A stretch of DNA of 54,514 nt, from positions 1 through 54,514 of the forward strand of contig NZ_SPQL01000020.1 of the NCBI RefSeq assembly GCF_004570385.1, given 5' to 3'. Position numbers and translations under genes: made by a program. This DNA is from Blastococcus sp. CT_GayMR19 (GTDB lineage Bacteria; Actinomycetota; Actinomycetes; Mycobacteriales; Geodermatophilaceae). The notes beneath the pieces were generated by a model, which worked only from the letters and a program-made list of their open reading frames with translations, was not told the DNA's origin and made no database searches. Below are positions 19,668 to 41,947 of this stretch, in pieces; the stretch's first letter is position 1; each line of letters begins with the position of its first letter.

Positions 19668-20033
19668 ATGGCTACGGCTGCTGCCGGGCCCCCGGGCACC
19701 CACCCGGCTGACGGCGAGAGCGTGGACCTGGCCCAGGCATGGGCGCTGTCCCCGCTGGTGACGCTGCGCCCAGAACCCTTCGGGGCGCTGGCCTACCACT
19801 TCGGCAACCGGCGTCTGGTGTTCCTGCGCCGCCCGGAGCTGGTGACGGTGGTGCGCGGCCTGGCCGCCGCCGCTGATGTACGTGGAGCCCTTGCGGCAGC
19901 AGGTGTCGCGGAGCGCCACTGGCCGGCCTATGCCGGCGCGCTGGCGCGACTGGCCACGGCCGGGTTGATCCAGCGACGTGAAGGCCATGCACACGGAGAA
20001 CCTGGTCACGACGAAGGGGATGAGCGGCCGTGA
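19668..20033 (+). CDS. mftB: Mycofactocin chaperone MftB
   Basis: The 121-residue RiPP-recognition protein (PqqD-like winged helix) presents MftA to the radical SAM enzyme MftC. Typical features are the N-terminal WALSPLVTLRPEPFGALAYHFG, RRLVFLRRPELVTVVR, and the C-terminal helix YAGALARLATAGLIQRR. The last 20 residues are His/Gly/Glu-rich (HAHGEPGHDEGDERP) and probably disordered. It begins 12 bases after mftA ends, and its stop overlaps the GTG of mftC. Confidence 0.92.
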   Translation: MATAAAGPPGTHPADGESVDLAQAWALSPLVTLRPEPFGALAYHFGNRRLVFLRRPELVTVVRGLAAAADVRGALAAAGVAERHWPAYAGALARLATAGLIQRREGHAHGEPGHDEGDERP

Positions 20034-21289
20034 CACCGGTAGCAGCCATGAACGAGGTCGAGCGGACCAGCGGGCCGCTGGCCGGCTCACTGGTCGAGCA
20101 GTTCGAGTACGGGCTGGACGCGCCGATCTGCCTCACGTGGGAGCTGACCTACGCGTGCAACCTGTCCTGCGCGCACTGCCTGTCCTCGTCGGGCCGCAGG
20201 GACCCGCGGGAGCTCACCACCGCGCAGTGCGAGGGCGTCATCGACGAGCTGCAGCGGATGCAGGTCTTCTACGTCAACGTCGGCGGGGGAGAGCCCACGA
20301 TCCGGCCGGACTTCTGGCACCTGCTGGACTACGCGGTCGGCCATTCCGTGGGGGTCAAGTTCTCCACGAACGGGGTGCGCATCACGCCGGAACGGGCGCG
20401 GTTCCTGGCCTCGACCGACTACGTGGACGTACAGGTGTCGCTGGACGGCGCGACGCCGGAGGTGAACGACCAGGTACGGGGCGCGGGGTCCTTCCGCACC
20501 GCGGTCACGGCCCTCGAGAATCTCGCCGAGGCAGGCTTCACGGACACGAAGATCTCCGTGGTCATGACGCGGACGAACATCCCGCAGCTCGACGACTTCC
20601 AGGCGTTGGCGGACCGGTACGGTGCGACGCTGCGGCTCACCCGGTTGCGACCGTCCGGCCGCGGCGCCGACGTGTGGGACGAGCTGCACCCGCTGCCGAA
20701 CCAGCAGCGGCAGCTCTACGACTGGCTGCGCGAGCACGGCGAGCGGGTGCTGACCGGGGACTCCTTCTTCCACCTCGCGGGATTCGGGGAGTCGCTGCCA
20801 GGACTCAATCTGTGCGGCGCCGGCCGCGTCGTCTGCCTCATCGACCCGGTCGGGGACGTGTACGCGTGTCCGTTCGCGATCCACGAGACGTTCCGTGCCG
20901 GCAACCTGCTGACCGACGGCGGCTTCGCGGCGGTGTGGCGCACCTCGCCGCTGTTCGCCGACCTCCGCTCGCCACAGACCGGCGGCGCGTGCACGAAGTG
21001 CAGCCATTTCGACGCGTGCCGCGGTGGCTGCATGGCGGCCAAGTTCTTCACGGGCCTGCCCTTGGACGGCCCCGACCCCGAGTGCGTGCAGGGGTACGGC
21101 GAGACGGCGCTGGCGGGGGAACGCACCGTTCCGTCGCCCAGTCAGGACCACTCCCGCCGGACGCCGACCAGGAACCAACCCGTGCTGCTGCAGCTGTCAC
21201 GCCGCGAGGAGCAGCCCTGGTCGCCGGCGGCACCTCCGGTATCGGCGTGTGCGGAGCACCCGTTGGCCGGCTTCACACCCACCGCCTGA
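20030..21289 (+). CDS. mftC: Mycofactocin radical SAM maturase MftC
   Basis: This 419-residue radical SAM/SPASM enzyme decarboxylates the C-terminal Tyr of MftA and then forms the Val-Tyr crosslink. The SAM cluster ligands are Cys43, Cys47 and Cys50 (CNLSCAHC), followed by NVGGGEPTIRPDFW. Auxiliary-cluster cysteines occur in LCGAGRVVCLIDPVGDVYACPF and CTKCSHFDACRGGC. The GTG at 20030 overlaps the mftB stop; an ATG at 20048 is possible. The tail after the SPASM domain is about 50 residues and ends in AEHPLAGFTPTA. Confidence 0.95.
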   Translation: MTPVAAMNEVERTSGPLAGSLVEQFEYGLDAPICLTWELTYACNLSCAHCLSSSGRRDPRELTTAQCEGVIDELQRMQVFYVNVGGGEPTIRPDFWHLLDYAVGHSVGVKFSTNGVRITPERARFLASTDYVDVQVSLDGATPEVNDQVRGAGSFRTAVTALENLAEAGFTDTKISVVMTRTNIPQLDDFQALADRYGATLRLTRLRPSGRGADVWDELHPLPNQQRQLYDWLREHGERVLTGDSFFHLAGFGESLPGLNLCGAGRVVCLIDPVGDVYACPFAIHETFRAGNLLTDGGFAAVWRTSPLFADLRSPQTGGACTKCSHFDACRGGCMAAKFFTGLPLDGPDPECVQGYGETALAGERTVPSPSQDHSRRTPTRNQPVLLQLSRREEQPWSPAAPPVSACAEHPLAGFTPTA

Positions 21290-21321
21290 TCGCGCACCGC
21301 CTGATAGCACCCACCGCCTGA
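21280..21321 (+). repeat. Three copies of CACCGCCTGA at the mftC end
   Basis: CACCGCCTGA occurs at 21280-21289 (covering the mftC stop), 21295-21304 and 21312-21321. Each copy contains an in-line TGA. This looks like slippage duplication in the short mftC-mftD gap and has no clear function. Confidence 0.6.
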
Positions 21322-21344
21322 CCGCACCGGGAGACGAGAGCCGA

Positions 21345-22595
21345 ATGTCCAAGCCTGCCTGGCTGGCCAACCCCTGGGCGCAGAACCCGTGGTTCGAGTC
21401 CGTCGCCGTCGCGCAGCGGCGTGCCCGCAAGCGGCTGCCGGCCCCCCTCTACGCGGCACTGATGGCGGGTTCGGAGCGCGGCCAGACCGTGGCAGAGAAC
21501 GAGTCGGCCTTCCGCGAGCTCGGCCTGGCCCCGCACGTGGCCGGCAATCCGCCGGTACGGGAGCTGGCCACCACGCTGATGGGGCAGGAGATCGCGCTGC
21601 CGGTGGTCATCTCGCCGACCGGAGTGCAGGCGGTCCACCCCGACGGCGAGGTCGCGGTGGCCCGCGCCGCCGCGGCCCGGGGGACGCTGATGGGGCTGAG
21701 CAACTTCGCCTCCAAGTCGGTGGAGGAGGTGGTGGCGGCCAACCCGCGGACGCTGTTCCAGATGTACTGGACCGGCGACCGTGACGTCATGGTCGAGCGG
21801 ATGGAGCGTGCCCGCGCCGCCGGGGCGATCGGCCTGATCGCGACGCTGGACTGGTCCTTCTCCATCGGCCGGGACTGGGGAAGCCCGGAGATCCCGGAGA
21901 AGGTCGACCTCCGCACCATGGTCCGGATGGCGCCCCATGTCGTGCACAAGCCGCGCTGGCTGGCGGCGTTCGCCCGCACCGGGCGGCTGCCCGACCTCAC
22001 CGCACCCAACCTGGCCCGTGCCGGCCAGCCCGCGCCGGGATTCTTCGGGGCGTACTACGAGTGGATGAACACCCCGCCGCCGACCTGGGACGACGTCGCC
22101 TGGATCCGGGAGCAGTGGGGCGGCCCCTTCATGCTCAAGGGCGTCGGCCGGGTCGACGACGCCCGGCGGGCCGTCGACGCCGGGGTCACCGCCATCTCGG
22201 TGTCCAACCACGGCGGCAACAACCTCGACGGGACCCCCGCCGCCATCCGGATGCTCAAGCCGGTCGTCGACGCGGTCGGGAAGGACGTCGAGGTCGTCAT
22301 GGACGGCGGGATCCGGCGCGGCTCCGACGTGGTCAAGGCGCTCTGTCTCGGCGCGCGGGCGGTGCTCATCGGCCGCGCCTACCTGTGGGGGCTGGCCGCC
22401 AACGGGCAGGCCGGGGTGGAGAACGTGCTGGACATCATGCGGATGGGCATCGACTCCGCGCTGCTGGGCATGGGCGCCGCCTCCGTGCACGACCTGACGC
22501 CCGGGCACCTGGTGATACCCGAGGGCTTCCACCGCGCTCTCGGCGGGACCGAGGACACCCCCGCGCCGGCGACGTTCGCCGTCGCCACGCCGTGA
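21345..22595 (+). CDS. mftD: Mycofactocin FMN-dependent oxidase MftD
   Basis: The 416-residue flavoprotein of the lactate oxidase/glycolate oxidase family oxidatively deaminates the mycofactocin intermediate AHDP to premycofactocin (PMFT), creating the redox-active alpha-keto group. The FMN-binding and catalytic regions are PVVISPTGVQAVHPDGEVA, YWTGDRDVMVERM, SVSNHGGNNLDGTPAA (catalytic His and phosphate contact) and VVMDGGIRRGSDVVKAL with ARAVLIGRAYLWG. The ATG at 21345 follows GGGAGACGAGAG. The N-terminal LANPWAQNPWFESVAVAQRR is characteristic of MftD. Confidence 0.95.
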   Translation: MSKPAWLANPWAQNPWFESVAVAQRRARKRLPAPLYAALMAGSERGQTVAENESAFRELGLAPHVAGNPPVRELATTLMGQEIALPVVISPTGVQAVHPDGEVAVARAAAARGTLMGLSNFASKSVEEVVAANPRTLFQMYWTGDRDVMVERMERARAAGAIGLIATLDWSFSIGRDWGSPEIPEKVDLRTMVRMAPHVVHKPRWLAAFARTGRLPDLTAPNLARAGQPAPGFFGAYYEWMNTPPPTWDDVAWIREQWGGPFMLKGVGRVDDARRAVDAGVTAISVSNHGGNNLDGTPAAIRMLKPVVDAVGKDVEVVMDGGIRRGSDVVKALCLGARAVLIGRAYLWGLAANGQAGVENVLDIMRMGIDSALLGMGAASVHDLTPGHLVIPEGFHRALGGTEDTPAPATFAVATP

Positions 22596-22596
22596 C

Positions 22597-23343
22597 GTGA
22601 CCGCCGTCCTCGCGGATGCGCCGTGGCTCGACGTCCCTCCCGGGTCCCTCGTGCTCGTCCCCGTCGGGTCGACGGAGCAGCACGGACCCCATCTGCCGCT
22701 GGACACCGATTCGGCCATCGCCGACGCCGTCGCGCATCGGTGCGCCGAGTCCCTGGCCCGCCACCGTGCCGATGAACCGGTGCTCGTGGCGCCGGTCGTG
22801 ACGTACGGCGCCAGCGGCGAGCACCAGGCCTTCCGCGGCACCTGCTCGATCGGCACCGAGGCGCTCCGGATGGTGACCGTGGAGCTGGTCCGCTCGATCC
22901 GCACCTGGGCGGAGCGGGTGGTGCTCGTCAACGGGCACGGCGGGAACGTGCCGGCGCTCCGGGCGGCGGTGTCCCAGCTCCGCGCCGAGGGGCACGCCGT
23001 GGCCTGGGCCTCCTGCGCCACCCGGGACACCGGTGGGCAGGGGGACGCGCACGCGGGCTTCTCGGAGACCTCGCTGATGCTGCACCTGCGACCCCGCGCC
23101 GTCCGGCTGGAGCGGGCCGAGCCGGGCAACACCACGCCGATCGAACGGCTCCTGCCTCGGCTGGTCGCCGACGGGGTCGCCGCAGTCTCGGTCAACGGGG
23201 TGCTCGGCGATCCCACCGGGGCGAGCGCGGCCGAGGGCGCTCGCCTGTTCGCGCAGATGGCGGCGGACGTGACCCGCAGCATCGAGTCCTGGCAGCCCGA
23301 CAGCACCGGCCGGCTACGCCTCCCGGCGGGGACGCGGGTGTGA
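22597..23343 (+). CDS. mftE: Mycofactocin peptidase MftE
   Basis: This 248-residue creatininase-family metallopeptidase cleaves the C-terminal Val-Tyr-derived dipeptide from modified MftA. Metal ligands are visible in VPVGSTEQHGPHLPLDTDS (Glu and His, then Asp) near residue 20, in LVNGHGGNVPAL near 107, and in DAHAGFSETSLML near 150. The GTG start lies one base after the mftD stop, and its stop overlaps the SDR gene. Confidence 0.94.
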   Translation: MTAVLADAPWLDVPPGSLVLVPVGSTEQHGPHLPLDTDSAIADAVAHRCAESLARHRADEPVLVAPVVTYGASGEHQAFRGTCSIGTEALRMVTVELVRSIRTWAERVVLVNGHGGNVPALRAAVSQLRAEGHAVAWASCATRDTGGQGDAHAGFSETSLMLHLRPRAVRLERAEPGNTTPIERLLPRLVADGVAAVSVNGVLGDPTGASAAEGARLFAQMAADVTRSIESWQPDSTGRLRLPAGTRV

Positions 23344-24143
23344 CGGGCTCCTCCTCCCGCGTCGCGCTGGTCACCGGAGCGGCCCGCGGGATCGGCGCCG
23401 CCACCGTCGACGCGCTCTGCCTGCGCGGCTACCGGGTCGTGGCCGTCGACTCCTGCGCCGCGGACCAGGACCGACCACAACTGGGCTACGACCTGGCCAC
23501 GCCGGACCAACTGGAGGCGGTCGCAGGGCGCCACCCCGGTCAGGTGCTGCCCGCGGTGGCCGACGTCCGGGACCGGCCGGCGCTCGCGGCGGCCGCCCAG
23601 GCGGCCCTGGACCGGTTCGGCCGCCTCGATGCCGCGGTGGCCGCCGCGGCCGTCATCACCGGCGGCCGGCCCCAGTGGGAGACCTCGGAGGCGGAGCTCC
23701 GGCATCTCCTGGACGTCGACCTGATCGGCGTGTGGCACACCGCCGCCGTCACCGTGCCGCTTCTGCTGGCCGGACCCGAACCACGCGGCGGCCGGTTCGT
23801 CGCAGTCTCCTCCGCGGCCGGGGTCACCGGCCTCTTCGGGCTCTCGGCCTACGGCGCCGCCAAGCACGCCGTCGTCGGACTGGTCCGGGGGCTGGCCGAG
23901 GACCTCGCTGGCACCGGCGTGACCGCCGTGGCAGTCGCGCCGGGCTCGACGAGAACCGACATGCTGCACGCCACGGCGGACCTCTACGGCCTCGAGGACG
24001 TCGAGCGCTTCGCCGGCTCATCCCTGATGCGCCGCATCCAGGACCCCCACGACGTCGCCGAGATCATCGCCTTCTGCTGCTCCCCGGAGGCCGCTCCGCT
24101 CAACTCCTCGGTCATCCCTGCCGGGGGAGGCTTCCGGCCGTGA
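23340..24143 (+). CDS. Mycofactocin-coupled SDR-family oxidoreductase
   Basis: The 267-residue short-chain dehydrogenase has the nucleotide motif TGAARGIGAATVDAL at residues 10-25, Ser in VAVSSAAGVTGLFG, and the catalytic pair YGAAK near residue 178. SDRs at this exact place, between mftE and mftF, form a recurring subfamily of mycofactocin-associated, non-exchangeable-NAD enzymes. It probably oxidises an alcohol and hands electrons to mycofactocin, or acts on the cofactor itself; both ideas are inference. It overlaps both neighbours by four bases, which ties it to the biosynthetic operon. Confidence 0.9.
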   Translation: MTGSSSRVALVTGAARGIGAATVDALCLRGYRVVAVDSCAADQDRPQLGYDLATPDQLEAVAGRHPGQVLPAVADVRDRPALAAAAQAALDRFGRLDAAVAAAAVITGGRPQWETSEAELRHLLDVDLIGVWHTAAVTVPLLLAGPEPRGGRFVAVSSAAGVTGLFGLSAYGAAKHAVVGLVRGLAEDLAGTGVTAVAVAPGSTRTDMLHATADLYGLEDVERFAGSSLMRRIQDPHDVAEIIAFCCSPEAAPLNSSVIPAGGGFRP

Positions 24144-30404: not shown

Positions 30405-31532
30405 TCAGTCGTGGACGATGACGCCGCGGATGTTCTTGCCGGCGTGCATGTCCTCGTAGCCCTTGTTGATGTCGTCGAGCTTGTACCGGGTGGTGATCAG
30501 CTCGTCGAGCTTGAGCTTCCCCTCCTGGTAGAGCCGCAGCATCTTCAGCATGTCGGAGCTCGGGTTCTGGTCGCCGAAGAGGGCGCCGCGGATCTCCTTG
30601 GTGAACAGCGCGAGCATGCTGGGGTTGATCGGGATGCCCACGTCGGTGAGGTCGCCGAGGCCGGTGATGACGACCCGGCCGCCCTTGCCGATCGCCTCGA
30701 ACGCCTGGGCGACGTGCTCGCCCTTCAGGACCCCGACGGTGATCAGCGCCTTGTCCGCTCCCTGCCCGTTGGTGACGCTGCGGGCGAAGTCGGCCGCCTC
30801 GTCCATGTTCTCGAAGGCGTGGGTGGCGCCGAGCTCCATGGCCTTCTCGCGCTTGAACGCGACGGGGTCGACGGCGATGACGTGGCTCGCGCCCGCGTGG
30901 GCCGCGCCCTGGACGGCGTTGATGCCGATGCCGCCGATGCCCATGACGATGACCGTGTCGCCGGCCTTGACCTCACCGGCCTGCACAGCGGTGCCCCAGC
31001 CGGTGCCGACGCCGCACCCGACGAGGCAGGCGACCTCGAGCGGGATGCTCTTGTCGATCTTCACCGTCGAGCGGATGTCGACCGTGGTGATCTCGGCGAA
31101 GGTGCCCAGCCCGCACATCTGGCCCACGTCGGTGCCGTCGGAGGTCTGGAACCGGAAGCTCGTGGCGTCGTCCCACCGCGAGCCGACCAGCAGGTTCGCG
31201 CCGGAGTCGCAGATGTACTGCTGACCGTTGGCGCAGTAGCGACAGCGTCCGCAGCCGGGCAGGAACGAGAAGACGACGTGGTCGCCCTCCTCGAAGCCCT
31301 TCGTGCCGGGGCCGACCGCGGTGACGACGCCGGCCCCTTCGTGGCCGCCGAGGAACGGGTACTTGCCCACGGGCATGTCACCGGTGGCGACGTGGTCGTC
31401 GGAGTGGCACAACCCGGAGGCGGCCACCTTGACCTGGAGCTCGCCGGGCTGGGGGTCGTCGACGACGAGATCGACGACCTCCCACTGTCCGGGTGCGGAG
31501 CGCATGATCGCGCCGCGGGTGTTCACGGGCAT
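30405..31532 (-). CDS. NDMA-dependent nicotinoprotein alcohol dehydrogenase
   Basis: This 375-residue zinc-type medium-chain dehydrogenase has a catalytic-zinc Cys in ASGLCHSDDHVATGDMPV near residue 38, GGHEGAGVVTAVGPG, the structural-zinc block CGRCRYCANGQQYIC near 94, and VIVMGIGGIGINAVQGAA (Rossmann) near 194. MPVGKYPFLGGHEGAG, ICDSGANLLVG and DQNPSSDMLKMLRLYQEGK are typical of the NDMA-dependent (Rxyl_3153-type) group, whose tightly bound NAD is re-oxidised by mycofactocin in vivo. This agrees with the mft cluster 5 kb away. The ATG at 31532 follows CAGGAGG. Two GCAACGTT-type sites lie 105-145 bp upstream. Confidence 0.92.
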   Translation of the reverse strand: MPVNTRGAIMRSAPGQWEVVDLVVDDPQPGELQVKVAASGLCHSDDHVATGDMPVGKYPFLGGHEGAGVVTAVGPGTKGFEEGDHVVFSFLPGCGRCRYCANGQQYICDSGANLLVGSRWDDATSFRFQTSDGTDVGQMCGLGTFAEITTVDIRSTVKIDKSIPLEVACLVGCGVGTGWGTAVQAGEVKAGDTVIVMGIGGIGINAVQGAAHAGASHVIAVDPVAFKREKAMELGATHAFENMDEAADFARSVTNGQGADKALITVGVLKGEHVAQAFEAIGKGGRVVITGLGDLTDVGIPINPSMLALFTKEIRGALFGDQNPSSDMLKMLRLYQEGKLKLDELITTRYKLDDINKGYEDMHAGKNIRGVIVHD

Positions 31533-31636
31533 GGGGACCTCCTGGTGGCCCTCGCGTCGAGGGGCTGGGATTGCATGCGTCGGCGCGCATGGCTGATGTG
31601 CACGCTATGGCGTGGGTCACACCGTGAAAAGGGCGT

Positions 31637-31677
31637 GCAACGTTGCGGGCCGAACCGGCGTGCTCGTGCAACGTTCG
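31637..31677. promoter_or_regulatory. Two GCAACGTT operator-like sites between divergent ADH and monooxygenase genes
   Basis: CGTGCAACGTTGCGG (31634-31648, containing the perfect palindrome GCAACGTTGC) and CGTGCAACGTTCGAC (31665-31679) are centred 31 bp apart, about three helical turns. They lie between the ADH (minus) and the FAD monooxygenase (plus). The same palindrome, extended to 18 bp, is upstream of coxS at 36752-36769. Binding by the GAF regulator encoded at 34115 is proposed. Confidence 0.6.
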
Positions 31678-31721
31678 ACCACCCGCAGTGCGCGGTTCAT
31701 GTCGTCGATCACAATGCGCTG

Positions 31722-33221
31722 GTGCCCTCGCTCCCGGTGGTCGTCGTCGGCGCCGGGCCGGTGGGGCTCACGGCCGCGTTGCTCCTCGCCCGCCGCGGGC
31801 TCGACGTCCTGGTGCTCGAACGCCACGCCGAGCCCTATCCGCTGCCCCGCGCGGTGCACCTGGACGACGAGGTCTTCCGCGTGCTGCAGGACGCCGGGGT
31901 GGCCGACGCGCTCCTCCCGCACACCCGCCCGATGGCGGGGCTCCGGCTGCTCGACGGGCAGCACCGCGTGCTCGCCGAGTTCGGTCGGCACGCCGGCCCG
32001 CACGGGTGGCCGCAGGGCTCGCTCGTGCACCAACCCGACCTCGAGGACGTGCTGGCCGCCGCGGCAGCGACCGACCCGCGCATCACGCTCCGGCGCGCCG
32101 CCGTCGTCACCGGGCTCGACCGGGACGACGCCGGCCCCGGCCCCGGCCAGGACGATGCCGGGGTCTCCGTCGTCTACCGGTCCGGCGGGGCGGACCGGTC
32201 CGTCCGGGCGGCTGCGGTGCTCGGCTGCGACGGCGCCGGCAGCACCGTCCGCGGCCTGATCGGCGCGGCGATGCGGGACCTCGGGCCGGCCGACCGCTGG
32301 CTCGTGCTCGACGTCCGGTCGGCTCCCGAGCTGCCGGTGTGGCCGGGTGCGCACCAGGTCTGCGACGCCCGCCGTCCGGCGACGTTCATGCCGGTCACCG
32401 GCGACCGGTACCGCTGGGAGTGCCGGCTGCGCCCGGGGGAGACGGTCGCCGACGCGATGACCCCCGAGCGACTCGCGCGGTTGCTCGCACCCGTCGACCC
32501 GGCGGCGGTCGAGTTCGTGCGCAGCGTCGAGTACACGTTCCGCGCGCAGGTGGCCGACCGGTGGCGGTCCGGCCGGGTCTTCCTGGCCGGGGACGCCGCT
32601 CATCTCAGCCCCCCGTTCATCGGGCAGGGTCTGGGGCTCGGCCTGCGCGACGTGCACCAGCTCGCCTGGAAGCTCGCCGCCGTGCTGGCGGGGGAGGCCG
32701 GGGACGACCTGCTGGACACCTACCAGGCGGAGCGCGAGCCGCATGCCCGGTCGCTGATCCGCGTCGCCCTGCTGCTCGGCCGGCTGATGACCGGCGGCGG
32801 CCGGCTCGGCGACGTCGTCCGCCGGGGTGTGCTCGCCGCCGTCCGGCGGATCCCGGCCGTGGCGCGGCTGGCGACGGACAGCCGGACGCCGCCGTTGCGC
32901 GGACCGCTGGTCGAACGCCGGGGGAGGGCGGGCCGGCGGCTGGCCGGCACGCTGATCCCGCAGCCGGAGGTGCTGGTCGACGGGCGGCGCTGCCGGCTGG
33001 ACGACGTCCTCGGGCCCGGCTCCGCCGAGATCACCGCGGACCTGCTGGTGCGCCGTTCGGACGGGACCGAGGTGGTGGTCGAGGAGCCCGCCGGGACGCT
33101 GACCGCGTGGATGCGGGGCGCCGCGGCCGTGCACGTGCGCCCTGACCGGATCGTCGGCTCCGCTCGTCGCACGTCGATCCGCGGGTCGGGCCGGCCGGCG
33201 GCGGGTAGGCGGCCGGCATGA
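31722..33221 (+). CDS. FAD-dependent aromatic hydroxylase (MhpA-like)
   Basis: The 499-residue class A flavoprotein monooxygenase has GxGxxG in VVGAGPVGLTAALLLARRG at residues 6-24, the middle DG-type motif in LGCDGAGSTVRGLIG, and the second FAD motif GRVFLAGDAAHLSPPFIGQG near residue 284. The overall order matches 3-(3-hydroxyphenyl)propionate hydroxylase and related phenol hydroxylases; the C-terminal thioredoxin-like region ends in Arg-rich sequence. The substrate is unproven, but an aromatic acid or phenol is likely. I chose the GTG at 31722. The stop overlaps the ATG of the small gene at 33218. Confidence 0.85.
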   Translation: MPSLPVVVVGAGPVGLTAALLLARRGLDVLVLERHAEPYPLPRAVHLDDEVFRVLQDAGVADALLPHTRPMAGLRLLDGQHRVLAEFGRHAGPHGWPQGSLVHQPDLEDVLAAAAATDPRITLRRAAVVTGLDRDDAGPGPGQDDAGVSVVYRSGGADRSVRAAAVLGCDGAGSTVRGLIGAAMRDLGPADRWLVLDVRSAPELPVWPGAHQVCDARRPATFMPVTGDRYRWECRLRPGETVADAMTPERLARLLAPVDPAAVEFVRSVEYTFRAQVADRWRSGRVFLAGDAAHLSPPFIGQGLGLGLRDVHQLAWKLAAVLAGEAGDDLLDTYQAEREPHARSLIRVALLLGRLMTGGGRLGDVVRRGVLAAVRRIPAVARLATDSRTPPLRGPLVERRGRAGRRLAGTLIPQPEVLVDGRRCRLDDVLGPGSAEITADLLVRRSDGTEVVVEEPAGTLTAWMRGAAAVHVRPDRIVGSARRTSIRGSGRPAAGRRPA

Positions 33222-33499
33222 ACAGCGACAAGAGCCAGATCCTGGACCTGCTCCGCTCGCAGGGCGACGACAGCAAGGCTCAGCAGGCCGACCAGGAGCT
33301 CCCCGACCAGGTCGACACCGACCGCGACGCCGGGCTGCTGTCCAAGGTCGGCATCGACCCCATGGACCTGGTCAAGAAGCTGGGCGGCGGCGGAGGACTC
33401 GGCGGCCTGCTCGGCGGTTTACGCCCGCCTACAGCTGCACCCGCTCGTTCTCGCCGCCGTCGTAGGCCGTCCCGGTCAGCTTCGCCTTCGCGAAGCTGA
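33218..33499 (+). CDS. Small hypothetical protein with Gly-rich end, overlapping an antisense gene
   Basis: The ATG overlaps the monooxygenase stop (ATGA). The first 68 residues look protein-like: MNSDKSQILDLLRSQGDD, then LLSKVGIDPMDLVKKLGGGG and LGGLLGGL. The last 25 residues are Arg/Ser/Pro-rich and lie antisense to the coding end of the PPOX-like gene (33429-33908), so they are likely spurious coding. A lost stop or a frameshift near 33420 would explain this. The function is unknown; Gly-rich amphipathic ends of this type occur in small secreted or membrane-active proteins, but no claim is made. Confidence 0.5.
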   Translation: MNSDKSQILDLLRSQGDDSKAQQADQELPDQVDTDRDAGLLSKVGIDPMDLVKKLGGGGGLGGLLGGLRPPTAAPARSRRRRRPSRSASPSRS

Positions 33500-33908
33500 T
33501 CACGCTCGCCAGTCGGCCGCCGGGCGAGTCCCAGTACTCGGCCGAGGCGGCATCGACCCGCAGCAGGACGACGTCGGGGTCCTCCTGGCCGTCGGGGAAC
33601 CAGGCCTCGACGACGGCGTTCCACAAGCTGCGCTTCTTCTCCAGGTCGTCGATGACGACGGCGTGCCCCGTCAGCGAGACCCAGCTCGAGCTGCCCGCCG
33701 TGGAGACGTTGACCTGGGGGTTCGCCGCGATGTGGGCCACCTTGCGCGAGCTGCGCGAGGCGAAGAACCACAGGTCGCCGTCGAACTCCACCTCCTGCAT
33801 CGCCATGGGGCGGCTGATCAGGGTCCCGTCGGGCGCGATGGTGGTGAACAGCCCGAACCGTTCGTCCTTCAGCAGCTCGGCGACCTTGGTCGCCTCCTCC
33901 GTCGTCAT
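33429..33908 (-). CDS. Pyridoxamine 5'-phosphate oxidase-like (general stress 26) protein
   Basis: The 159-residue split-barrel flavin-binding protein contains ELLKDERFGLFTTIAPDGTL, SRPMAMQEVEFDGDLWFFAS, SRKVAHIAANPQVNVS and AVVIDDLEKKRSLWN. These are the usual strands of the PPOX/general-stress-protein-26 group, which bind FMN or F420; the exact cofactor and reaction are unknown. The ATG at 33908 (MTTEEATKVAELL) gives the normal length, although the frame is open further upstream. It is convergent with, and overlaps by 71 bp, the small gene at 33218. Confidence 0.85.
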   Translation of the reverse strand: MTTEEATKVAELLKDERFGLFTTIAPDGTLISRPMAMQEVEFDGDLWFFASRSSRKVAHIAANPQVNVSTAGSSSWVSLTGHAVVIDDLEKKRSLWNAVVEAWFPDGQEDPDVVLLRVDAASAEYWDSPGGRLASVISFAKAKLTGTAYDGGENERVQL

Positions 33909-34114
33909 GCGTGGTCCCTGCCCGCATCCGGAGGTTCCTACGCTCGCCGGGTGCGGCGACGTGCGCCGGTGTGGGCCGCTCTCCCCGAGGCGCCGGTGCC
34001 GGCCGCCGGGCGGGAGGGTCCATCGACTCTGGCGGCCACGACGGCATCGCTGGTGCAATCGCCCGCGGCCAGCCACCATGGGCCCGACATGAGCCATCGT
34101 CGGCGGAGCGTCCC

Positions 34115-35437
34115 ATGCCCCCGGTCGTGAACCCGTGGCTGGCGCTCCCCGAGGGGCGGCCCAGTCCGGCACTGACCCGGCGGCTGCGGGCTGCCCACGA
34201 GCGGCTCGTCACCGGCACCGCGCTGCCCCCCGACGACGCGGTGCGCTCGGTCGTCCGCGACTCCTGGCGCCGCTCGCTCAGCTGCGGCGTCGACCCCGAC
34301 GGCGGGACGCCCCCGGTCGAGCTCCTGGACGACGAGCTGCTCGCCTACCGCGAGGCGCACCCGCTGGCGCCGGTCATGCCCGTCATCCGGCGGCTGCTGG
34401 TCCAGGACGCCGAGGCCGACCGGATGATCGTCGCCGTCACCGACTCCGGCGGCCGCATGCTCTGGGTCGAGGGGGACGCGCGGCTGCGCTCGCAGGCGGC
34501 CGGCATGAACTTCGTCGAGGGCGCCCGCTGGGCCGAGGAGGTCGCCGGCACCAACGCGCCCGGCACCGCGCTCGCCCTCGACCACGCCGTCCAGATCTAC
34601 GGCAGCGAGCACTACCGCCGGCCGGTGCAGCCGTGGAGCTGCTCGGCGGCGCCGGTGCACGACCCCGTCACCGGCTCGCTGCTGGGGGCGATCGACGTGA
34701 CCGGGGGCGACCACGTCGCCAGCCCGCACATGCTCACCCTCGTCCGGGCCACGGTCGCGGCCGTGGAGTCGGAGCTGAGGTGGCAGCGGCGGGAGCAGCT
34801 GCAGCGCGGCGCCGGCCGCCGTCCCCCGCCGCTGCAGCGCGTCTCGCCCCGCCTGGAGGTGCTCGGCCGCGACCGGGCGCGGCTCAGCCTGCCGAGCGGG
34901 CCGGTGGAGCTGTCGCTGCGGCACTCGGAGCTCCTGCTGCTCCTGGCCGAGGCGGCCGTCGCGAGCGAGGGCCGCACCGCCGCCCAGCTCGCCGCGGAGG
35001 TCCACCGCGGGGAGGCCGCGGCGGTCACCGTGCGCGCGGAGCTCTCCCGGCTGCGCCGGCTCGTCGGCGCGGAGCTGGTCGGCTCCCGCCCGTACCGGCT
35101 GCTCGGCCGCGTCGAGACCGACCTCGACCAGGTGCGCCGGTTGCTGGCCCGCGGCTCGGTCGGCTCGGCGCTGGAGCGCTATCCGGGCGCGGTACTGCCC
35201 GCTTCGCGCGCGCCGGGTGTCTCGAGCGCGCGCGAGCGGGTGTCCGCGTTGCTGCGCCAGTCCGTCCTGAGGAGCCGGCGGCCCGAGCTGCTCCTGCGGT
35301 ACGGGCAGCTGCCCGAGGCGCGGGACGACGTCGCCGTCTGGCAGGCCTGCCTGGACTGCCTGCCCGCGAGCTCGCCGCGCCGTGCGGCGGCCGCCGCGCA
35401 CCTGCTGCGGCTGCGACGGAGCTCACCTCTCCGCTGA
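34115..35437 (+). CDS. GAF-domain transcriptional regulator (AcoR-like N-terminus, winged-helix C-terminus)
   Basis: The 440-residue protein begins like AcoR-type activators: VVRDSWRRSLSCGVDPDG near residue 46. A GAF sensor domain follows (about 85-215: RMIVAVTDSGGRMLWVEGD, GARWAEEVAGTNAPGTAL, GSEHYRRPVQPWSCSAAPVH, LLGAIDVTGG). No AAA+ domain follows, so it cannot act with sigma-54. Instead residues 250-330 look like a winged helix (SLRHSELLLLLAEAAV, RTAAQLAAEVHRG, VTVRAELSRLRRLVGAEL), and a helical C-terminus is rich in Arg. Such GAF proteins control alcohol and acetoin genes in actinobacteria. It lies between the two GCAACGTT operator regions and is the best candidate to bind them. Confidence 0.82.
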   Translation: MPPVVNPWLALPEGRPSPALTRRLRAAHERLVTGTALPPDDAVRSVVRDSWRRSLSCGVDPDGGTPPVELLDDELLAYREAHPLAPVMPVIRRLLVQDAEADRMIVAVTDSGGRMLWVEGDARLRSQAAGMNFVEGARWAEEVAGTNAPGTALALDHAVQIYGSEHYRRPVQPWSCSAAPVHDPVTGSLLGAIDVTGGDHVASPHMLTLVRATVAAVESELRWQRREQLQRGAGRRPPPLQRVSPRLEVLGRDRARLSLPSGPVELSLRHSELLLLLAEAAVASEGRTAAQLAAEVHRGEAAAVTVRAELSRLRRLVGAELVGSRPYRLLGRVETDLDQVRRLLARGSVGSALERYPGAVLPASRAPGVSSARERVSALLRQSVLRSRRPELLLRYGQLPEARDDVAVWQACLDCLPASSPRRAAAAAHLLRLRRSSPLR

Positions 35438-35448
35438 CCGTCCGGGGA

Positions 35449-36738
35449 ATGCCCGCGAGCCGTTCGCCCTTGGCAGCAGGAGTGAGTGCCGCACCTCCCT
35501 CGACCGTCCGTCCGCCCCTCAGCACCGCCCGCGTGGTCGTCGCGGTCGTCGCGCTGGCGATCGGCGGGTTCGCGATCGGCACCACCGAGTTCGTCACCAT
35601 GGGCGTGCTGCCCGACATCGCCGAGGGCGTGGGTGTCGACATCCCCTCGGCCGGCCACGTCATCTCGGTCTACGCCCTCGGCGTCGTCGTCGGTGCCCCG
35701 GTCATCGCGGCGCTCAGCGCCCGGCTGCCGCGGCGGGCGCTGCTGATCGGCCTGATGGCCGCGTTCCTCGTCGGCAACGGGCTCACCGCGCTCGCGCCCG
35801 GCTACGGCACCCTGCTGCTCGCCCGCTTCCTGACCGGCCTGCCGCACGGCGCCTATTTCGGCGTCGCCTCGCTGGTCGCCGCCTCGCTGGTCGCCCCGCA
35901 CCTGCGCGGACGGGCGGTCAGCTCCGTCATGCTCGGCCTGGCGGCGGCCATGCTCACCGGCGTGCCGGCCGCGACCTGGCTGGGCCAGCAGTTCGGCTGG
36001 CGGTCGGCGTACTGGACGGTGGTCGTGCTGGCCGCGATGACCGTCGCCGCCGTCCTCGCCGTGGTGCCGTCGTCCCCCGGCCGGTCGGAGGCAACCGTGC
36101 GCGGGGAGCTCGGCGCGCTCCGGCGTCCGCAGGTGCTGCTCACCCTGCTGGTCGGGATCGTGGGCTTCGGCGGCATGTTCGCCCTCTACAGCTACATCGC
36201 CCCGGTCGTCACCGACGTCGCCGAGCTCTCGCGGGGCACGGTGCCGGTCGTCCTCCTCGCGTACGGGGCGGGTGGCGTGGTCGGGACGGTGCTCGGCGGG
36301 CGGCTGGCGGACCTCTCGCTGTTCCGCTCCCTGGTGGGCTCCCTCGTCGTCCTCGGCGTGCTGCTGGTCGGTGTCGCGCTGACGTCCCCCTACCCGGTCG
36401 CCCTGTTCGTCGGCGTCTTCCTCGTCTCCGTCGCGGCGTCCACGCTGGCGATCTGCCTCCAGATGCGGCTGATGGAGACGGCGGGCGAGGCGCAGATGCT
36501 CGGCGCCGCCCTGAACCACTCCGCGCTCAACCTCGCCAACGCGCTCGGCGCCTGGCTCGGCGGACTGGTCATCGCGGCCGGCCTGGGCTACCGCGCGCCC
36601 AGCGTCGTCGGTGCCGGCCTGGCCGCGCTCGGCTTGCTGCCGCTGGCGATCTCCGCCGTGCTCCGCCGCCGTGCCGGGCGGACGCCGGTCCGGCTCGCCC
36701 CGGCCCCGACGCGCCAGGTCCGGGTGCCCGCGGCCTGA
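35449..36738 (+). CDS. MFS transporter, DHA1 (AraJ/CmlR-like) family
   Basis: The 429-residue protein has twelve predicted membrane helices. The N-terminal [20 protein letters not shown] near residue 40 is the hallmark of the AraJ/arabinose-efflux type DHA1 family, and [30 protein letters not shown] is its motif C-like helix. Family members export sugars, drugs or small metabolites. Here it follows the GAF regulator by 11 bp in the same direction and precedes the coxS operator, so it may export a pathway compound; the substrate is unknown. The ATG at 35449 is used; a GTG at 35482 is an alternative. Confidence 0.85.
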
Positions 36739-36740
36739 CC

Positions 36741-36769
36741 GGCTGCAACCAGGCTGCAACGTTGCAGCC
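36741..36769. promoter_or_regulatory. 18-bp palindrome with the GCAACGTTGC core upstream of coxS
   Basis: GGCTGCAACGTTGCAGCC at 36752-36769 is perfectly symmetric, and a half-site GGCTGCAAC at 36741-36749 sits one helical turn upstream. The core GCAACGTTGC is the one found before the ADH gene. It is about 190 bp upstream of the coxS ATG and three bases past the MFS stop, which fits an activator binding at a distance. It has no loop, so it is not a terminator. Confidence 0.65.
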
Positions 36770-36796: not shown

Positions 36797-36820
36797 AAGA
36801 CCCCGGAATTCCGGTCTTTT
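36797..36820 (+). terminator. Hairpin with T-run before coxS
   Basis: AAGACC (36797-36802) pairs with GGTCTT (36813-36818); the interior GGAATTCC is itself palindromic, and TTTT at 36817-36820 completes the signal. It can end the MFS transcript or attenuate coxS expression. It lies between the palindromic operator and the coxS start. Confidence 0.55.
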
Positions 36821-36955
36821 GGTGCTCGATGGTGCCCGCGGAGGCGTGCCGGGGACCTCGGCGGCCGGTCAGGTCTGGTCAAGCGCGCCTCTCACGGCCA
36901 GACTCCGCCGTGCGGGCCGGGAGTGACCGGTGCCACACCTCAGAGTGGAGGGCAC

Positions 36956-37462
36956 ATGACCGAGATCAACGTGCGGGTCGACGGGGTGGCCTACGCCGAC
37001 GCCGTCGAGCCGCGGACCCTGCTCGTCCACTACCTGCGCGAGCAGCTCGGCAAGGTCGGCACCGTCGTCGGATGCGACACCAGCAACTGCGGGGCCTGCA
37101 CCGTCCACCTGGACGGCGAGGCGGTGAAGAGCTGCACCGTGCTGGCCGTACAGGCCGACGGGTGCGAGGTCACCACCATCGAGGGGATCGCCCCGCAGGG
37201 CAGCCTGCACCCGATGCAGAAGGCGTTCCACGAGATGCACGGCCTGCAGTGCGGGTTCTGCACCCCCGGGATGATCATGGCCTCGATCGACCTGGTGAAC
37301 GACAACCCGAACCCGACCGACGACGAGGTGCGCGAGGGCATCGAGGGCAACCTCTGCCGCTGTACCGGCTACCAGAACATCGTGCGCGCCGTGCAACAGG
37401 CGGCCGCCGAGATGAGCGGCGGCGCACCCACCTCCTCCGAGACGCTGGGAGCGCAGTCATGA
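36956..37462 (+). CDS. coxS: Form II CO dehydrogenase-type small subunit (2 x 2Fe-2S), CoxS-like
   Basis: The 168-residue iron-sulfur subunit of a xanthine-oxidase-family enzyme passes electrons from the Mo site to FAD. The plant-type 2Fe-2S cluster uses Cys40, Cys45, Cys48 and Cys60 ([15 protein letters not shown]), and the second cluster uses Cys99, Cys102, Cys134 and Cys136 (CGFCTPGM and CRCTGYQNI). All eight ligands are present. ATG follows GTGGAGGGCAC. Its stop overlaps the coxL start. The order S-L-M is that of form II enzymes; form I CO dehydrogenases are M-S-L. Confidence 0.93.
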
Positions 37463-39954
37463 CCATGGTCGACGAGCCCACGGGCACCCAGGCGCCGGAG
37501 AAGGAGGTCGGCAAGGCGCGCCGCCGCAAGGAGGACGCCCGGCTGATCACCGGGAAGACGACCTGGACCGACAACATGTCGCTGCCGGGGATGCTGCACA
37601 TCGCCGTCGTCCGCAGCCCCGTCGCGCACGCGCGGATCTCCAACGTCGACGTCAGCGCGGCCAAGGCGGCGCCCGGCGTCATCGAGGTCTACACCGGTCG
37701 CGACTTCGCCGAGGAGCAGGGCTCGCTCCCGTGCGCCTGGCCGGTCACCCCCGACATGGTCAACCCGGGGCACCCCTCGATCGCCGTCGACTCGGTCAAC
37801 CACGTCGGCGAGGCCGTCGCCCTGATCGTCGCGCGCAGCAAGGTCGCCGCGCAGGACGCCGTCGAGCTCGTCGACATCGACTACGACGTCCTCCCGCCGG
37901 TCCTGCGCATGGAGGAGGCGGTCAAGGACGGCGCCGACCTCGTCCACGACGAGCTCTCCTCGAACACCAGCTACCACTTCGTCTTCGACGCCGGGGACGC
38001 CGGCCTCGGGGGGAACACCGACCAGGCGTTCGCCGACGCCGAGGTCGTCGTCAGCCGCCGGTTCGTCAACCAGCGGCTCATCCCGGCGTTCATGGAGCCC
38101 CGGTCGTGCGTCGTCTCACCGCAGGGCGACAACTACACGATGTGGTCGTCCACTCAGATCCCGCACATCCTGCGGGTGATGCTGGCGATGGTGACCGGTG
38201 TACCCGAGCACAAGCTGCGGATCATCGCGCCAGACGTCGGCGGCGGCTTCGGCGGCAAGCTGCAGGTCAACCCCGAGGAGGTGCTGGCGCTCCTCGTCGC
38301 CCGCCGGCTGGGCAAGCCGGTCAAGTGGACCGAGACCCGCAGCGAGTCGCTGATGACGGCGCACCACGGCCGCGACCAGATCCAGTTCATCGACATCGCC
38401 GCCGACCGTGAGGGCAACGTCAAGGGCCTGAAGGTCCGGCTGCTCGCCGACATGGGCGCCTACCTGCGGCTGATCACCCCCGGTGTCCCGGCTCTCGGTG
38501 CGTTCATGTTCCCGGCCATCTACAAGTTCCCGGCCTACCACTTCGAGTGCGACGGCGTCTTCACCAACAAGGTGCCCACCGACGCCTACCGCGGCGCCGG
38601 GCGGCCCGAGGCGACCTTCGCCGTCGAGCGGATCATGGACGAGCTCGCCGTCGAGCTGGGCATGGACCCGCTCGAGCTGCGCCGCAAGAACTGGATCCAG
38701 GCGCAGGAGTTCCCCTTCACCACGATCGCCGGCCTCGAGTACGACAGCGGCGACTACGAGCAGGCGACGCAGCAGGCGCTCCAGCTCATCGGCTACGACG
38801 AGCTGCGCGCCGAGCAGCGGCAGCGGCGCGAGTCCGGCGACCCGGTCCAGCTCGGCATCGGGTTCTCCACCTTCACGGAGATGTGCGGCCTGGCCCCCTC
38901 CCGGGTGCTCGGCTCGCTCGCCTTCGGCGCCGGCGGCTGGGAGCACGCCTCGATCCGGATGCTGCCCACCGGCAAGGTCGAGGTCGTCACCGGCTCGACG
39001 CCGCACGGCCAGGGGCACGAGACGGCCTGGAGCCAGCTCGTCGCCGATGAGCTCGGCGTGCCGTTCGAGGACGTCGAGGTGCTGCACGGCGACACCTCCA
39101 TCTCCTCCCGCGGCCTGGACACCTACGGCTCCCGCTCGCTCGTGGTGGGCGGCACCGCCGTGGTCAAGGCCGCCGAGAAGGTCGTGGCCAAGGCCCGGAA
39201 GATCGCGGCGCACCTGCTGGAGGCCAGCGAGGACGACCTCGAGTTCACCGGCGGCAAGTTCTCCGTCCGTGGGACGCCGGGCACCGGTCTCGGCATCCAG
39301 GAGATCGCGCTGGCGATCTTCGCCGCCCACAACTACCCCGAGGGGATCGAGCCCTCGATCGACGCCGACGCGACGTTCGACCCGGTCAACTTCTCCTTCC
39401 CCCACGGCACGCACATCTGCGCCATGGAGGTCGACACCGAGACGGGCATGGTGAAGATCCGCAAGTACGCGTCCGTCGACGACATCGGGAAGATCGTCAA
39501 CCCGCTCATCGTGGAGGGGCAGATCCACGGTGGGCTGGCCCAGGGCATCGCGCAGGCGCTGTACGAGGAGGCCGTCTACGACGACGACGGCAACCTCACC
39601 ACCGGCACCTTCGTCGACTACCTGGTCCCGGCGGCCTCCGACCTGCCGCACTTCGACACCGGCAACACGGTGCACGAGGCGCCGGGGAACCCGATCGGCG
39701 CCAAGGGCGTGGGCGAGGCCGGCTGCATCGCCAGCACCCCGGCGGTGGTCAACGCCGCGCTGGACGCCGTCCGGCACCTGGGCGTCACGGACATCCAGAT
39801 GCCGCTGACGCCGGAACGGGTCTGGCGGGCCATCCATCAGGGCGGGGACGGCGGGGAGCGCGCCACCGCCGGGACGATCGCCTGGGGTGGCGCCTCGACC
39901 GAGACCACCACCGGCGTGTCCACCGACGCTTCCTCCCTGGGAGGGGACCGATGA
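37459..39954 (+). CDS. coxL: Form II CO dehydrogenase-type large subunit (Mo-binding), CoxL-like
   Basis: The 831-residue catalytic subunit binds the molybdopterin cytosine dinucleotide cofactor. [10 protein letters not shown] near residue 262 and [17 protein letters not shown] near 752 (active-site Glu) are standard for the family. The active-site loop reads AYRGAGRPE near residue 376, the form II signature; form I CO dehydrogenases have AYxCSFR with a Cys that binds copper. The Cys is absent, so CO oxidation is doubtful and an aldehyde or aromatic substrate is likely. The ATG overlaps coxS and the stop overlaps coxM, so S-L-M is one translational unit. Confidence 0.93.
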
Positions 39955-40808
39955 TTCCCGCAGCGTTCGCCTACGCCCGTCCCACCACGATCGACGAGGC
40001 GCTGCAGGCCGTCGCCGACGGCGGGGAGGACGTCAAGATCATGGCCGGGGGGCAGTCGCTGATCCCCGTCATGCGGCTGCGGCTGGCCGCGCCGGAGACG
40101 GTCGTCGACCTGACCCGGGTGGCCGAGATGCGCGGGGTCCGGGAGGAGGGCGACGCGATCGTCATCGGCGCGATGACGACGCACTCCGACGTCCTCTCCG
40201 ACCCGTTGATCGCCCAGTGGGCCCCGCTGATCGCCGACGCGACGGAGACGGTGGCCGACCGGCAGGTGCGGCACCGCGGCACCTTCGGCGGTGCTCTCGC
40301 ACACGCCGACCCGGCCGGTGACCTGCCCGCCGTGGCGCTGGCGCTCGACGCCGAGTTCGTCATCGCCGGCCTGAACGGCCGGCGCACCGTCGGTGCCGCC
40401 GAGTTCTTCGTCGACTACCTCACCACCGCGTTGGAGGAGGGGGAGCTGCTCGTCGAGATCCGGGTGCCCAAGCTGCAGGGCACGTGGGGCATGCACTACG
40501 AGAAGTTCAACCGCGTCGCGCAGGCGTGGTCGATCGTCGCGGTGGCGGCGGCCGTCCGGCGCGAGGGGGGCGTCATCGCGGAGGCCCGGATCGGGCTGAC
40601 CAACATGGGCCCGGTCCCGTTGCGGGCGAGCGGCGTGGAAGCGGCCCTGGCCGGGGCCGAGGCGACGGCCGAGGCGATCGCCGCGGCAGCGGACCGGGCG
40701 GCCGAGGGCACCAGTCCCAGCAGCGACCTGAACGCGCAGGCGGACTATCGGCAACACCTCGTCACGGTGCTCACGCGCCGTGCGGTGACTGCGGCCGCCG
40801 GGCTGTAG
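39951..40808 (+). CDS. coxM: Form II CO dehydrogenase-type medium subunit (FAD-binding), CoxM-like
   Basis: The 285-residue FAD subunit has the pyrophosphate-binding loop VKIMAGGQSLIPVMRLRL near residue 28 and HRGTFGGALAHADPAGDLP near 108, the second FAD motif, with the typical TFGG/HADP residues. The C-terminal domain, from WGMHYEKFNRVAQAW, is the CO_deh_flav_C fold. It delivers electrons onward to an acceptor such as a quinone. The ATG overlaps the coxL stop as ATGA. Confidence 0.93.
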   Translation: MIPAAFAYARPTTIDEALQAVADGGEDVKIMAGGQSLIPVMRLRLAAPETVVDLTRVAEMRGVREEGDAIVIGAMTTHSDVLSDPLIAQWAPLIADATETVADRQVRHRGTFGGALAHADPAGDLPAVALALDAEFVIAGLNGRRTVGAAEFFVDYLTTALEEGELLVEIRVPKLQGTWGMHYEKFNRVAQAWSIVAVAAAVRREGGVIAEARIGLTNMGPVPLRASGVEAALAGAEATAEAIAAAADRAAEGTSPSSDLNAQADYRQHLVTVLTRRAVTAAAGL

Positions 40809-40897: not shown

Positions 40898-41947
40898 GTG
40901 CAGCTGGAGAACTCGTTCACCGTGCCCGTGCCCATCGACGAGGCCTGGCGGGTGCTCCTCGACATCGAGCGGATCGCGCCCTGCATGCCGGGTGCGGCGC
41001 TCGACTCGGTCGACGGTGACGACTTCACGGGTCGGGTCAAGGTCAAGCTGGGCCCGATCAACCTGACCTATCAGGGCAAGGCGTCCTTCATCGAGAAGGA
41101 CGAGGCCGCGCACAAGGCGGTCATCGACGCCCGCGGCAAGGACCAGCGGGGCAACGGCACCGCGGCCGCCGTCGTCACCGCGAAGCTGAAGGCCGAGGGG
41201 TCGATCACCCGCGTCGACGTGCTGACCGACCTCAACATCACCGGCCGGCCGGCCCAGTTCGGGCGCGGCGTCATGACCGACGTCGGCAACAAGCTCCTGG
41301 GCCAGTTCGCCGACAAGCTCGCCGCCCAGCTCGGGGAGGGTGACGCACAGGGCGACGCCGAGCGTGCGGAGAGCGCCGCCGCGAAGGTGGCCGCCACCGC
41401 GTCCGGGGCCGTCGAGGAGATCGCGGCCTCCGCCGAGCAGGCCGCCGGGGACGGTCCCGCCGGCCAGGCCGTGAAGAAGGGAGCGGCGGCGACCAAGAAG
41501 ACCGCTGCTGCCGCCACGGACAAGGCGACCGGCACGACGGACACCGTTGCCATCGATGCGCCGGCCGCTGCCGACAAGAAGGCGCCGGTGAAGGCCGTGC
41601 CGCCGCTGGCCGAGACAGTGCCCGCCACCGCGGACACCACGTCGGCGGCGAAGGCCGGCGCCCCGGCGGCCAAGGACAAGGCGCCCGCGACGGCGAAGGC
41701 CCCGAGCGGGCCGCCGAAGGGAACCACCGCTCCGCCGAGCAAGCCAGCGTCGGGCGGCCCGGTGCGCAGCGTGCCGTCGACCACTCCCGCCGCGTCGCGG
41801 CCGCGCCCGGTCGTGGAGCCGGAGCCGATCGACCTGCTCGAGGTCGCCGGCGGCGCCGCGATGGCCCGGTACGCGGCACCTGCCGCCGGTATCGCTGCGG
41901 TGGTGGTTCTCGTCCTGCTGGTCGTGCGCCGCCGTCGCCGCGGCTGA
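40898..41947 (+). CDS. coxG: CoxG-like SRPBCC protein with C-terminal membrane anchor
   Basis: This 349-residue protein has an N-terminal SRPBCC/CoxG domain (about 1-150: LENSFTVPVPIDEAWRVLLD, ERIAPCMPGAAL, RVDVLTDLNITGRPAQFGRG) as found beside CO-dehydrogenase genes. A long Ala/Pro/Lys-rich linker (about 155-300) follows, then a single hydrophobic helix, AAPAAGIAAVVVLVLLVV, and Arg residues at the C-terminus. CoxG is thought to recruit the dehydrogenase to the membrane; the C-terminal helix here makes the anchor explicit. The GTG start follows TGAGGAGG. It is 90 bp after coxM, so it may share the transcript. Confidence 0.87.
   Translation: MQLENSFTVPVPIDEAWRVLLDIERIAPCMPGAALDSVDGDDFTGRVKVKLGPINLTYQGKASFIEKDEAAHKAVIDARGKDQRGNGTAAAVVTAKLKAEGSITRVDVLTDLNITGRPAQFGRGVMTDVGNKLLGQFADKLAAQLGEGDAQGDAERAESAAAKVAATASGAVEEIAASAEQAAGDGPAGQAVKKGAAATKKTAAAATDKATGTTDTVAIDAPAAADKKAPVKAVPPLAETVPATADTTSAAKAGAPAAKDKAPATAKAPSGPPKGTTAPPSKPASGGPVRSVPSTTPAASRPRPVVEPEPIDLLEVAGGAAMARYAAPAAGIAAVVVLVLLVVRRRRRG

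Follow-up and report, generated by a model that had tools for sequence, protein, structure and literature searches.

A TGCAACG direct repeat proposed to join a mycofactocin-type alcohol dehydrogenase and coxSLM under a GAF-domain regulator in Blastococcus

The 54,514-nucleotide contig NZ_SPQL01000020.1 of Blastococcus sp. CT_GayMR19, here called the window, carries a gene for a mycofactocin-type, N,N-dimethyl-4-nitrosoaniline (NDMA)-dependent alcohol dehydrogenase (ADH) divergent from a FAD monooxygenase (FMO) gene and, further on, the genes coxS, coxL and coxM of a molybdenum hydroxylase. We consider it probable that the product of a GAF-domain gene starting at 34115, between the two groups, is a ligand-responsive activator that pairs on TGCAACG direct repeats and jointly controls coxSLM and the ADH/FMO pair. 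This reading draws on the sites, on how well they are conserved and how they depend on the GAF gene from genome to genome, as found in the DNA, and on a predicted fold. The elements concerned are the following.

34115..35437, + strand: proposed regulator, a DhaR-like GAF sensor (residues 43-234) followed by a SARP-like winged helix and helical domain (residues 243-440) in the predicted structure
36744..36762, + strand: putative coxS operator, tandem direct repeat TGCAAC-N5-TGCAACGT with an 11-bp period, overlapping the palindrome at 36752-36769
31636..31645, + strand: site 1 of the ADH/FMO gap, TGCAACGTTG, reading towards FMO; its TGCAACGTT is invariant in four aligned orthologous gaps
31667..31675, + strand: site 2 of the ADH/FMO gap, TGCAACGTT, 31 bp past site 1; its TGCAACG is invariant in the four aligned gaps
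30405..31532, - strand: NDMA-dependent (mycofactocin-type) ADH, proposed target (TIGR03989, 586.8 bits, cutoff 440)
31722..33221, + strand: FMO of the MhpA-like subfamily, divergent from ADH, proposed target (NF004829, 537.7 bits, cutoff 390)
36956..37462, + strand: coxS, 2Fe-2S subunit of the molybdenum hydroxylase, proposed target (profile match)
37459..39954, + strand: coxL, molybdopterin subunit, proposed target, with AYRGAGR at residue 376 and no AYxCSFR
39951..40808, + strand: coxM, FAD subunit, proposed target (profile match)

The original prediction had described a single palindrome upstream of both gene groups, and its bases, its coordinates and the calls of the ADH (TIGR03989), FAD monooxygenase, GAF and coxS/L/M genes were all found to hold. 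In the ADH/FMO gap the palindrome GCAACGTTGC is perfect at 31637-31646 and recurs with two changes, as GCAACGTTCG, at 31668-31677; before coxS a perfect 18-bp inverted repeat, GGCTGCAACGTTGCAGCC, lies at 36752-36769, with a half-site, GGCTGCAAC, to its left at 36741-36749. The spacings are close to whole helical turns, as had been claimed, the units being 31 bp apart in the gap (31636 to 31667, about three turns) and 11 bp apart before coxS (36744 to 36755, about one turn). In a GC-rich genome such words might recur by chance, and in the window the 10-mer with up to two mismatches is indeed about as frequent as in shuffled sequence (32 against 26.07 expected), as is the bare hexamer TGCAAC (10 against 9.36 expected). 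However, in the genome of 4,574,936 bases the exact TGCAACGTTGC is confined to the two reported places (reversed control 0), the tandem TGCAACN{4,5}TGCAAC has a single match there, at coxS (reversed control 0), and in 16 genomes of the genus the same pattern has 25 matches against 0 for its reversed control. Together with the conservation at coxS and FMO described below, this makes chance an extremely improbable source of the sites. Looser scans of the genome gave no clear further regulon members, whether with CTGCAACGTTGCAG at up to two mismatches (6 places, 4 in the control) or with TGCAAC-N5-TGCAACGTT at up to three (18 matches, 12 in the control).

The site before coxS was followed across relatives. 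In the window and in 13 relatives from the genus, TGCAAC, four or five bases and a second TGCAAC stand between the regulator or MFS-type genes and coxS; 14 of the 25 genus matches are at coxS, 4 lie beside distant GAF genes (40-43% identity) and 7 elsewhere. Among loci with a GAF homologue the best 80 of 172 were surveyed and 58 with coxS were counted, 20 distant loci with no cox match and two loci without coxS in the available DNA (L106, L169) being set aside. Within 320 bp upstream of coxS, 56 of the 58 loci carry the tandem, and the conserved element can be written TGCAAC-N4/5-TGCAAC(G/C)T, the spacer being 5 bp in 43 sites and 4 bp in 13 and the T eight bases into the second unit being present in 56/56. 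Neither the reverse orientation, nor the reversed pattern, nor shuffles gave a match before coxS in the 58 loci, and no tandem lies elsewhere in the 1,095,622 bases of the coxS-bearing loci. Two cox loci are without it: L165, which has the one-base variant TGCAAC-N5-CGCAACG, and L145. Beyond the family the pattern is little informative, since across the order 107 of 298 genomes match it and its control, too, matches many times outside the family.

The idea that the palindrome is the unit recognised did not survive this comparison. Of the 56 coxS sites, 25 have the full 10-bp palindrome and 4 its 12-bp form; because the direct repeat is near-universal, the core element, as judged from the sites themselves, is the direct repeat and the palindrome a frequent extension of it. 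If GCAACGTTGC were instead the operator of a dyad-symmetric dimeric regulator, for example of the TetR type as is MftR for the mycofactocin genes, one could point to its two perfect copies, to an 11-base form unique in the genome and to the commonest bases after the second TGCAAC, which are G, T, T, G and C. We nevertheless regard such a regulator as unlikely, as the direct repeat is kept far more widely than the palindrome, the second ADH/FMO unit is not palindromic and the exact FMO units all point in one direction. MftR, a TetR-type repressor, is like the proposed regulator in controlling genes of the same redox cofactor, and it differs in protein type and in operator; with the core T-N2-GGCA-N5-TGCC-N2-A reported in PMC8728441, a different sequence, an MftR operator was ruled out for these sites.

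A terminator hairpin was likewise weighed, for the following gene.

35449..36738, + strand: MFS-type transporter gene, between regulator and coxS (named by eye)

The inverted repeat at 36752-36769 starts 13 bases past the stop codon of this gene and could fold in RNA. Yet no run of T follows it, the palindrome is complete in fewer than half of the sites where the direct repeat is kept, and the tandem is also present in operator-bearing loci that have no MFS gene between GAF and coxS (for example L141, L119 and L129), so that termination seems a very unlikely role for it. Separately, the stretch 36797-36820 between operator and coxS in the window forms an inverted repeat around CCGGAATTCCGG, with TTTT after it, and hairpin-like stretches resembling it were seen by eye in some other Blastococcus loci; this repeat is a candidate terminator of the upstream genes or an attenuator.

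Genomes that lack the GAF gene provide a natural deletion test. In 28 of 96 family genomes no GAF match was found at E 1e-120, and 22 of these keep coxL at an identity of at least 75%. One, G212, was moved out of the set, having a partial GAF gene close to the end of a contig, and the tandem, which left 21; in G109 the contig ends about 2 kb past the start of the stretch, and the absence of GAF may be a gap. The coxS tandem was found in 0/21, both within 320 bp and up to 1200 bp upstream (556 bp in G330), and an MFS match still precedes coxS in 14 of the 21. A lone TGCAAC unit before coxS in G006 (-267) and G322 (-244) is as expected of decay. TGCAAC also occurs near -20 before coxS in 11/21; it was not counted as operator and probably belongs to the ribosome-binding region.

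The ADH/FMO gap gave a comparable picture. Four orthologous gaps could be aligned, and both TGCAACG words are invariant in an alignment that is 76% identical overall and has other invariant blocks as well. An ADH relative is divergent from FMO in 29 of the best 30 of 86 FMO loci. Across the 86 of 96 family genomes counted as having an FMO gene, the start of which was read from the alignment and could deviate by a few codons, an exact TGCAACG faces FMO within 170 bp in 33/63 genomes with the GAF gene and in 0/23 without it (Fisher 1.9e-6), and the word in reverse orientation was found before FMO in none. Within genus g2 the count is 10/10 with GAF against 0/13 without. The two FMO units are 31 bp apart in the window, 32 in G007 and G010, 22 in G015, 21 in G169 and G312 and 62 in G325. 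Co-occurrence at both loci thus lends support, at the level of sequence, to the shared operator first proposed for ADH/FMO and coxSLM, and to the view that the GAF protein is likely to read it.

The regulator itself was modelled from an alignment of 55 rows with a pLDDT of 92.4; a first model from 13 close homologues (pLDDT 52.3) was set aside. The predicted structure has an OmpR-type winged helix and then a helical BTA domain, and the protein is predicted to combine a GAF sensor similar to DhaR with an AfsR/SARP-like module. Since the GAF sensor (residues 43-234) stands in front, the module is C-terminal, in contrast to the N-terminal DNA-binding part of SARP activators such as AfsR of Streptomyces coelicolor, EmbR and PimR, and the protein was filed as SARP-like, with a different architecture, and not as a member of the SARP family. 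It further differs from SARP activators in its repeat word, TGCAACG, and in its proposed targets, genes of alcohol and aldehyde oxidation. The activators DhaR and AcoR carry AAA+ and Fis-type DNA-binding domains. The window protein resembles them in a GAF-containing sensor region; however, it has no AAA+ or Fis-type Pfam match, its C-terminal part has another predicted fold, and it scores 55.6 bits against the DhaR profile, far below the cutoff of 551. Pfam searches with 13 alignment rows found GAF in 4 and weak DUFs in 3, the window protein matching GAF only. Nothing on such a GAF/SARP-like regulator was found in the open-access literature, which is no proof that it is unpublished.

More distant relatives place the same site in another gene context. 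The 20 distant GAF loci, from Streptomyces, Nocardiopsis, Actinoplanes, Winogradskya, Jiangella, Rhodococcoides, Cellulomonas, Actinotalea and others, encode regulators 45-52% identical to the window protein. In 19 of them the next gene encodes an aldehyde dehydrogenase (Pfam Aldedh), and the same 19 have NGCAACN5NGCAAC(G/C) at or just past the end of the GAF gene; in L164 GAF has neither the tandem nor an aldehyde dehydrogenase gene next to it. TANNNT follows the second heptamer by exactly 10 nt in 19/19 loci (0.013 expected) and never at another offset between 0 and 39, some of the loci being close kin (L157/L158, L160/L161), so that the independent cases are fewer than 19. PMC10936776 describes SARP sites as direct repeats spaced by 11 or 22 bp, of which the 3' one is 8 bp away from the -10 element, and places the two 11-bp repeats of the afs box between -40 and -19; PMC5930380 has heptamers separated by 4 bp, along with a 10-bp form. 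Counted in 11-bp units the distant sites lie 6 bp from box to -10, which by our reckoning is the same placement as that of the AfsR box.

These loci also bear on the suggestion that a different regulator, encoded elsewhere, reads the sites and that the GAF gene is a mere neighbour. A genome-wide factor could co-vary with the gene island, and binding by the GAF protein is itself something that we infer; yet the site accompanies the GAF gene in two gene contexts, with cox and with aldehyde dehydrogenase, it is absent from genomes without GAF even though cox and FMO remain, and in its 11-bp geometry it agrees with the regulator's own predicted DNA-binding fold. A different reader therefore appears improbable.

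The distant clade likewise informs the function of the cox genes. CoxSLM belongs to the same three-subunit molybdenum hydroxylase family as aerobic CO dehydrogenase, in which CoxL carries the motif AYxCSFR. The window CoxL has AYRGAGR in its place and scores 723.0 bits, below the CO dehydrogenase cutoff of 991.15; it is also below the cutoff for glyceraldehyde dehydrogenase (715 bits against 790). Because an aldehyde dehydrogenase gene fills the same slot in the distant clade and the CO dehydrogenase motif is missing, sequence comparison suggests that the AYRGAGR-type molybdenum hydroxylase is an aldehyde-oxidising enzyme.

Several results weigh against the regulator acting as proposed. At FMO, 30 of the 63 GAF genomes are without an exact site, including 10/10 in genus g4, and the window ADH/FMO units, at 31 bp and not 11 or 22, form no close tandem. 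No more than three changes are required to account for the GAF label on an FMO tree of 30 genomes, so the genome counts overstate independence, the Fisher P is too small and the association in these two genera stands on few events. In the order-wide scan, G212 apart, the tandem turned up in one of 14 family genomes without GAF, namely G204, which has no cox. Neither the window protein nor 12 other alignment rows gave a SARP or winged-helix Pfam match at E up to 10, a search in which HMMER filters may hide weak winged-helix/BTAD matches. Finally, the strict promoter pattern of the distant clade has 0 matches in 16 genus genomes, and its fixed -10 spacing is absent at coxS, where no TANNNT stands at a fixed distance; activation there would thus have to work over a distance or through a promoter that went unrecognised.

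The second unit lies 159-285 bp before the coxS start codon, and in the window a putative -10 box stands between the two.

36899..36904, + strand: CAGACT, putative coxS -10 box by resemblance, 144 bp from where the second unit begins and 57 bp ahead of the start codon

An NAGACT box occurs 92-149 bp on from the second unit in 27/56 coxS loci, the window having it at 144 bp. The distances fall into five clusters (about 93, 103, 114, 136 and 147) that are in phase with one another for a period of about 10.8 bp, and five random distances agree as well in a null fraction of 0.00165, a value that uses the five cluster means and a phase found after the fact for an assumed -10 box in under half of the loci. 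We take this as a lead that the activator at coxS may act from a distance on one helical face. In this the coxS tandem, far from its putative -10, differs from SARP sites, whose repeat/-10 geometry the distant clade shares (19/20).

In the mechanism that we propose, in which DNA binding, activation, effector and substrates are all inferred, the GAF sensor would bind an aldehyde or alcohol as inducer, and two protomers would occupy neighbouring TGCAACG units side by side, one turn apart on the same face of the helix. The bound SARP-like modules would then recruit polymerase, switching on coxSLM through the tandem at 36744-36762 and the divergent ADH and FMO genes through the two units at 31636-31675. 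The alcohol would be oxidised to an aldehyde by the mycofactocin-dependent ADH, and the aldehyde to an acid by the molybdenum hydroxylase without the CO dehydrogenase motif; perhaps the acid would be converted to acyl-CoA by a ligase, an acyl-CoA ligase-type gene being present in the window at 26687. A wider scheme is more tentative and, to our minds, falls somewhat short of an even chance: GAF plus SARP-like activators would be widespread in actinobacteria, with aldehyde dehydrogenase as ancestral target and an operator recognisable straight from genome sequence, NGCAACN5NGCAAC plus 10 nt to TANNNT, and in Geodermatophilaceae the AYRGAGR-type molybdenum hydroxylases would have taken that slot as aldehyde oxidoreductases behind mycofactocin-dependent ADHs, with action at a distance at coxS.

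The window also has the following genes.

20030..24143, + strand: mycofactocin genes mftC, mftD and mftE and a mycofactocin-coupled SDR (TIGR03962, TIGR03966, TIGR03964 and TIGR04504, all above cutoff)
40898..41947, + strand: coxG-like gene (COXG)

Between 16127 and 19380 lie genes for a MadB-like ATPase, a MadC-like VWA protein and an XdhC-like maturation factor, all below family cutoffs, which are possible maturation genes of the molybdenum hydroxylase. In locus L060 the GAF/cox genes are separated from the FMO/ADH pair by mftF and mftC. A near-identical stretch, GTTCCACGTGCAACATCAG(T/C)GACG, was seen in eight genus loci (L054:16515, L057:3740, L058:16319, L059:6363, L060:12484, L061:13638, L063:3881 and L064:16197); in L060 it is between mftF and mftC, and it is probably coding.

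Further tandems were observed in the genus and beyond. A second type of GAF regulator, 40-43% identical, is present in the genus genomes G005, G009, G011 and G015, and in L083, L075 and L091 (and L089) TGCAAC-N4-TGCAAC stands near position 1501, in the divergent gap beside the second-type GAF gene; by eye, the gene past it is a flavin monooxygenase in three of the four. Seven more genus tandems lie in L073, L076, L085, L086, L087, L080 and L082, and those in L073, L085 and L086 continue alike with CCGGCACG, as if they belonged to a single orthologous locus. Five genomes from genus g28 (G039, G048, G057, G167 and G226) each have two opposite-strand TGCAAC tandems about 1.7-1.9 kb apart, as if flanking one gene.

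If the proposed regulator acts as described, the alcohol and aldehyde side of actinobacterial mycofactocin metabolism would have a defined operator and regulator, and a mycofactocin-dependent ADH and a molybdenum hydroxylase would be joined in one regulon. CoxL-like enzymes without the CO dehydrogenase motif would gain a testable function, aldehyde oxidation. The findings also suggest a use in carbon metabolism, behind a sensor domain, for the SARP way of recruiting polymerase that is known from antibiotic clusters.

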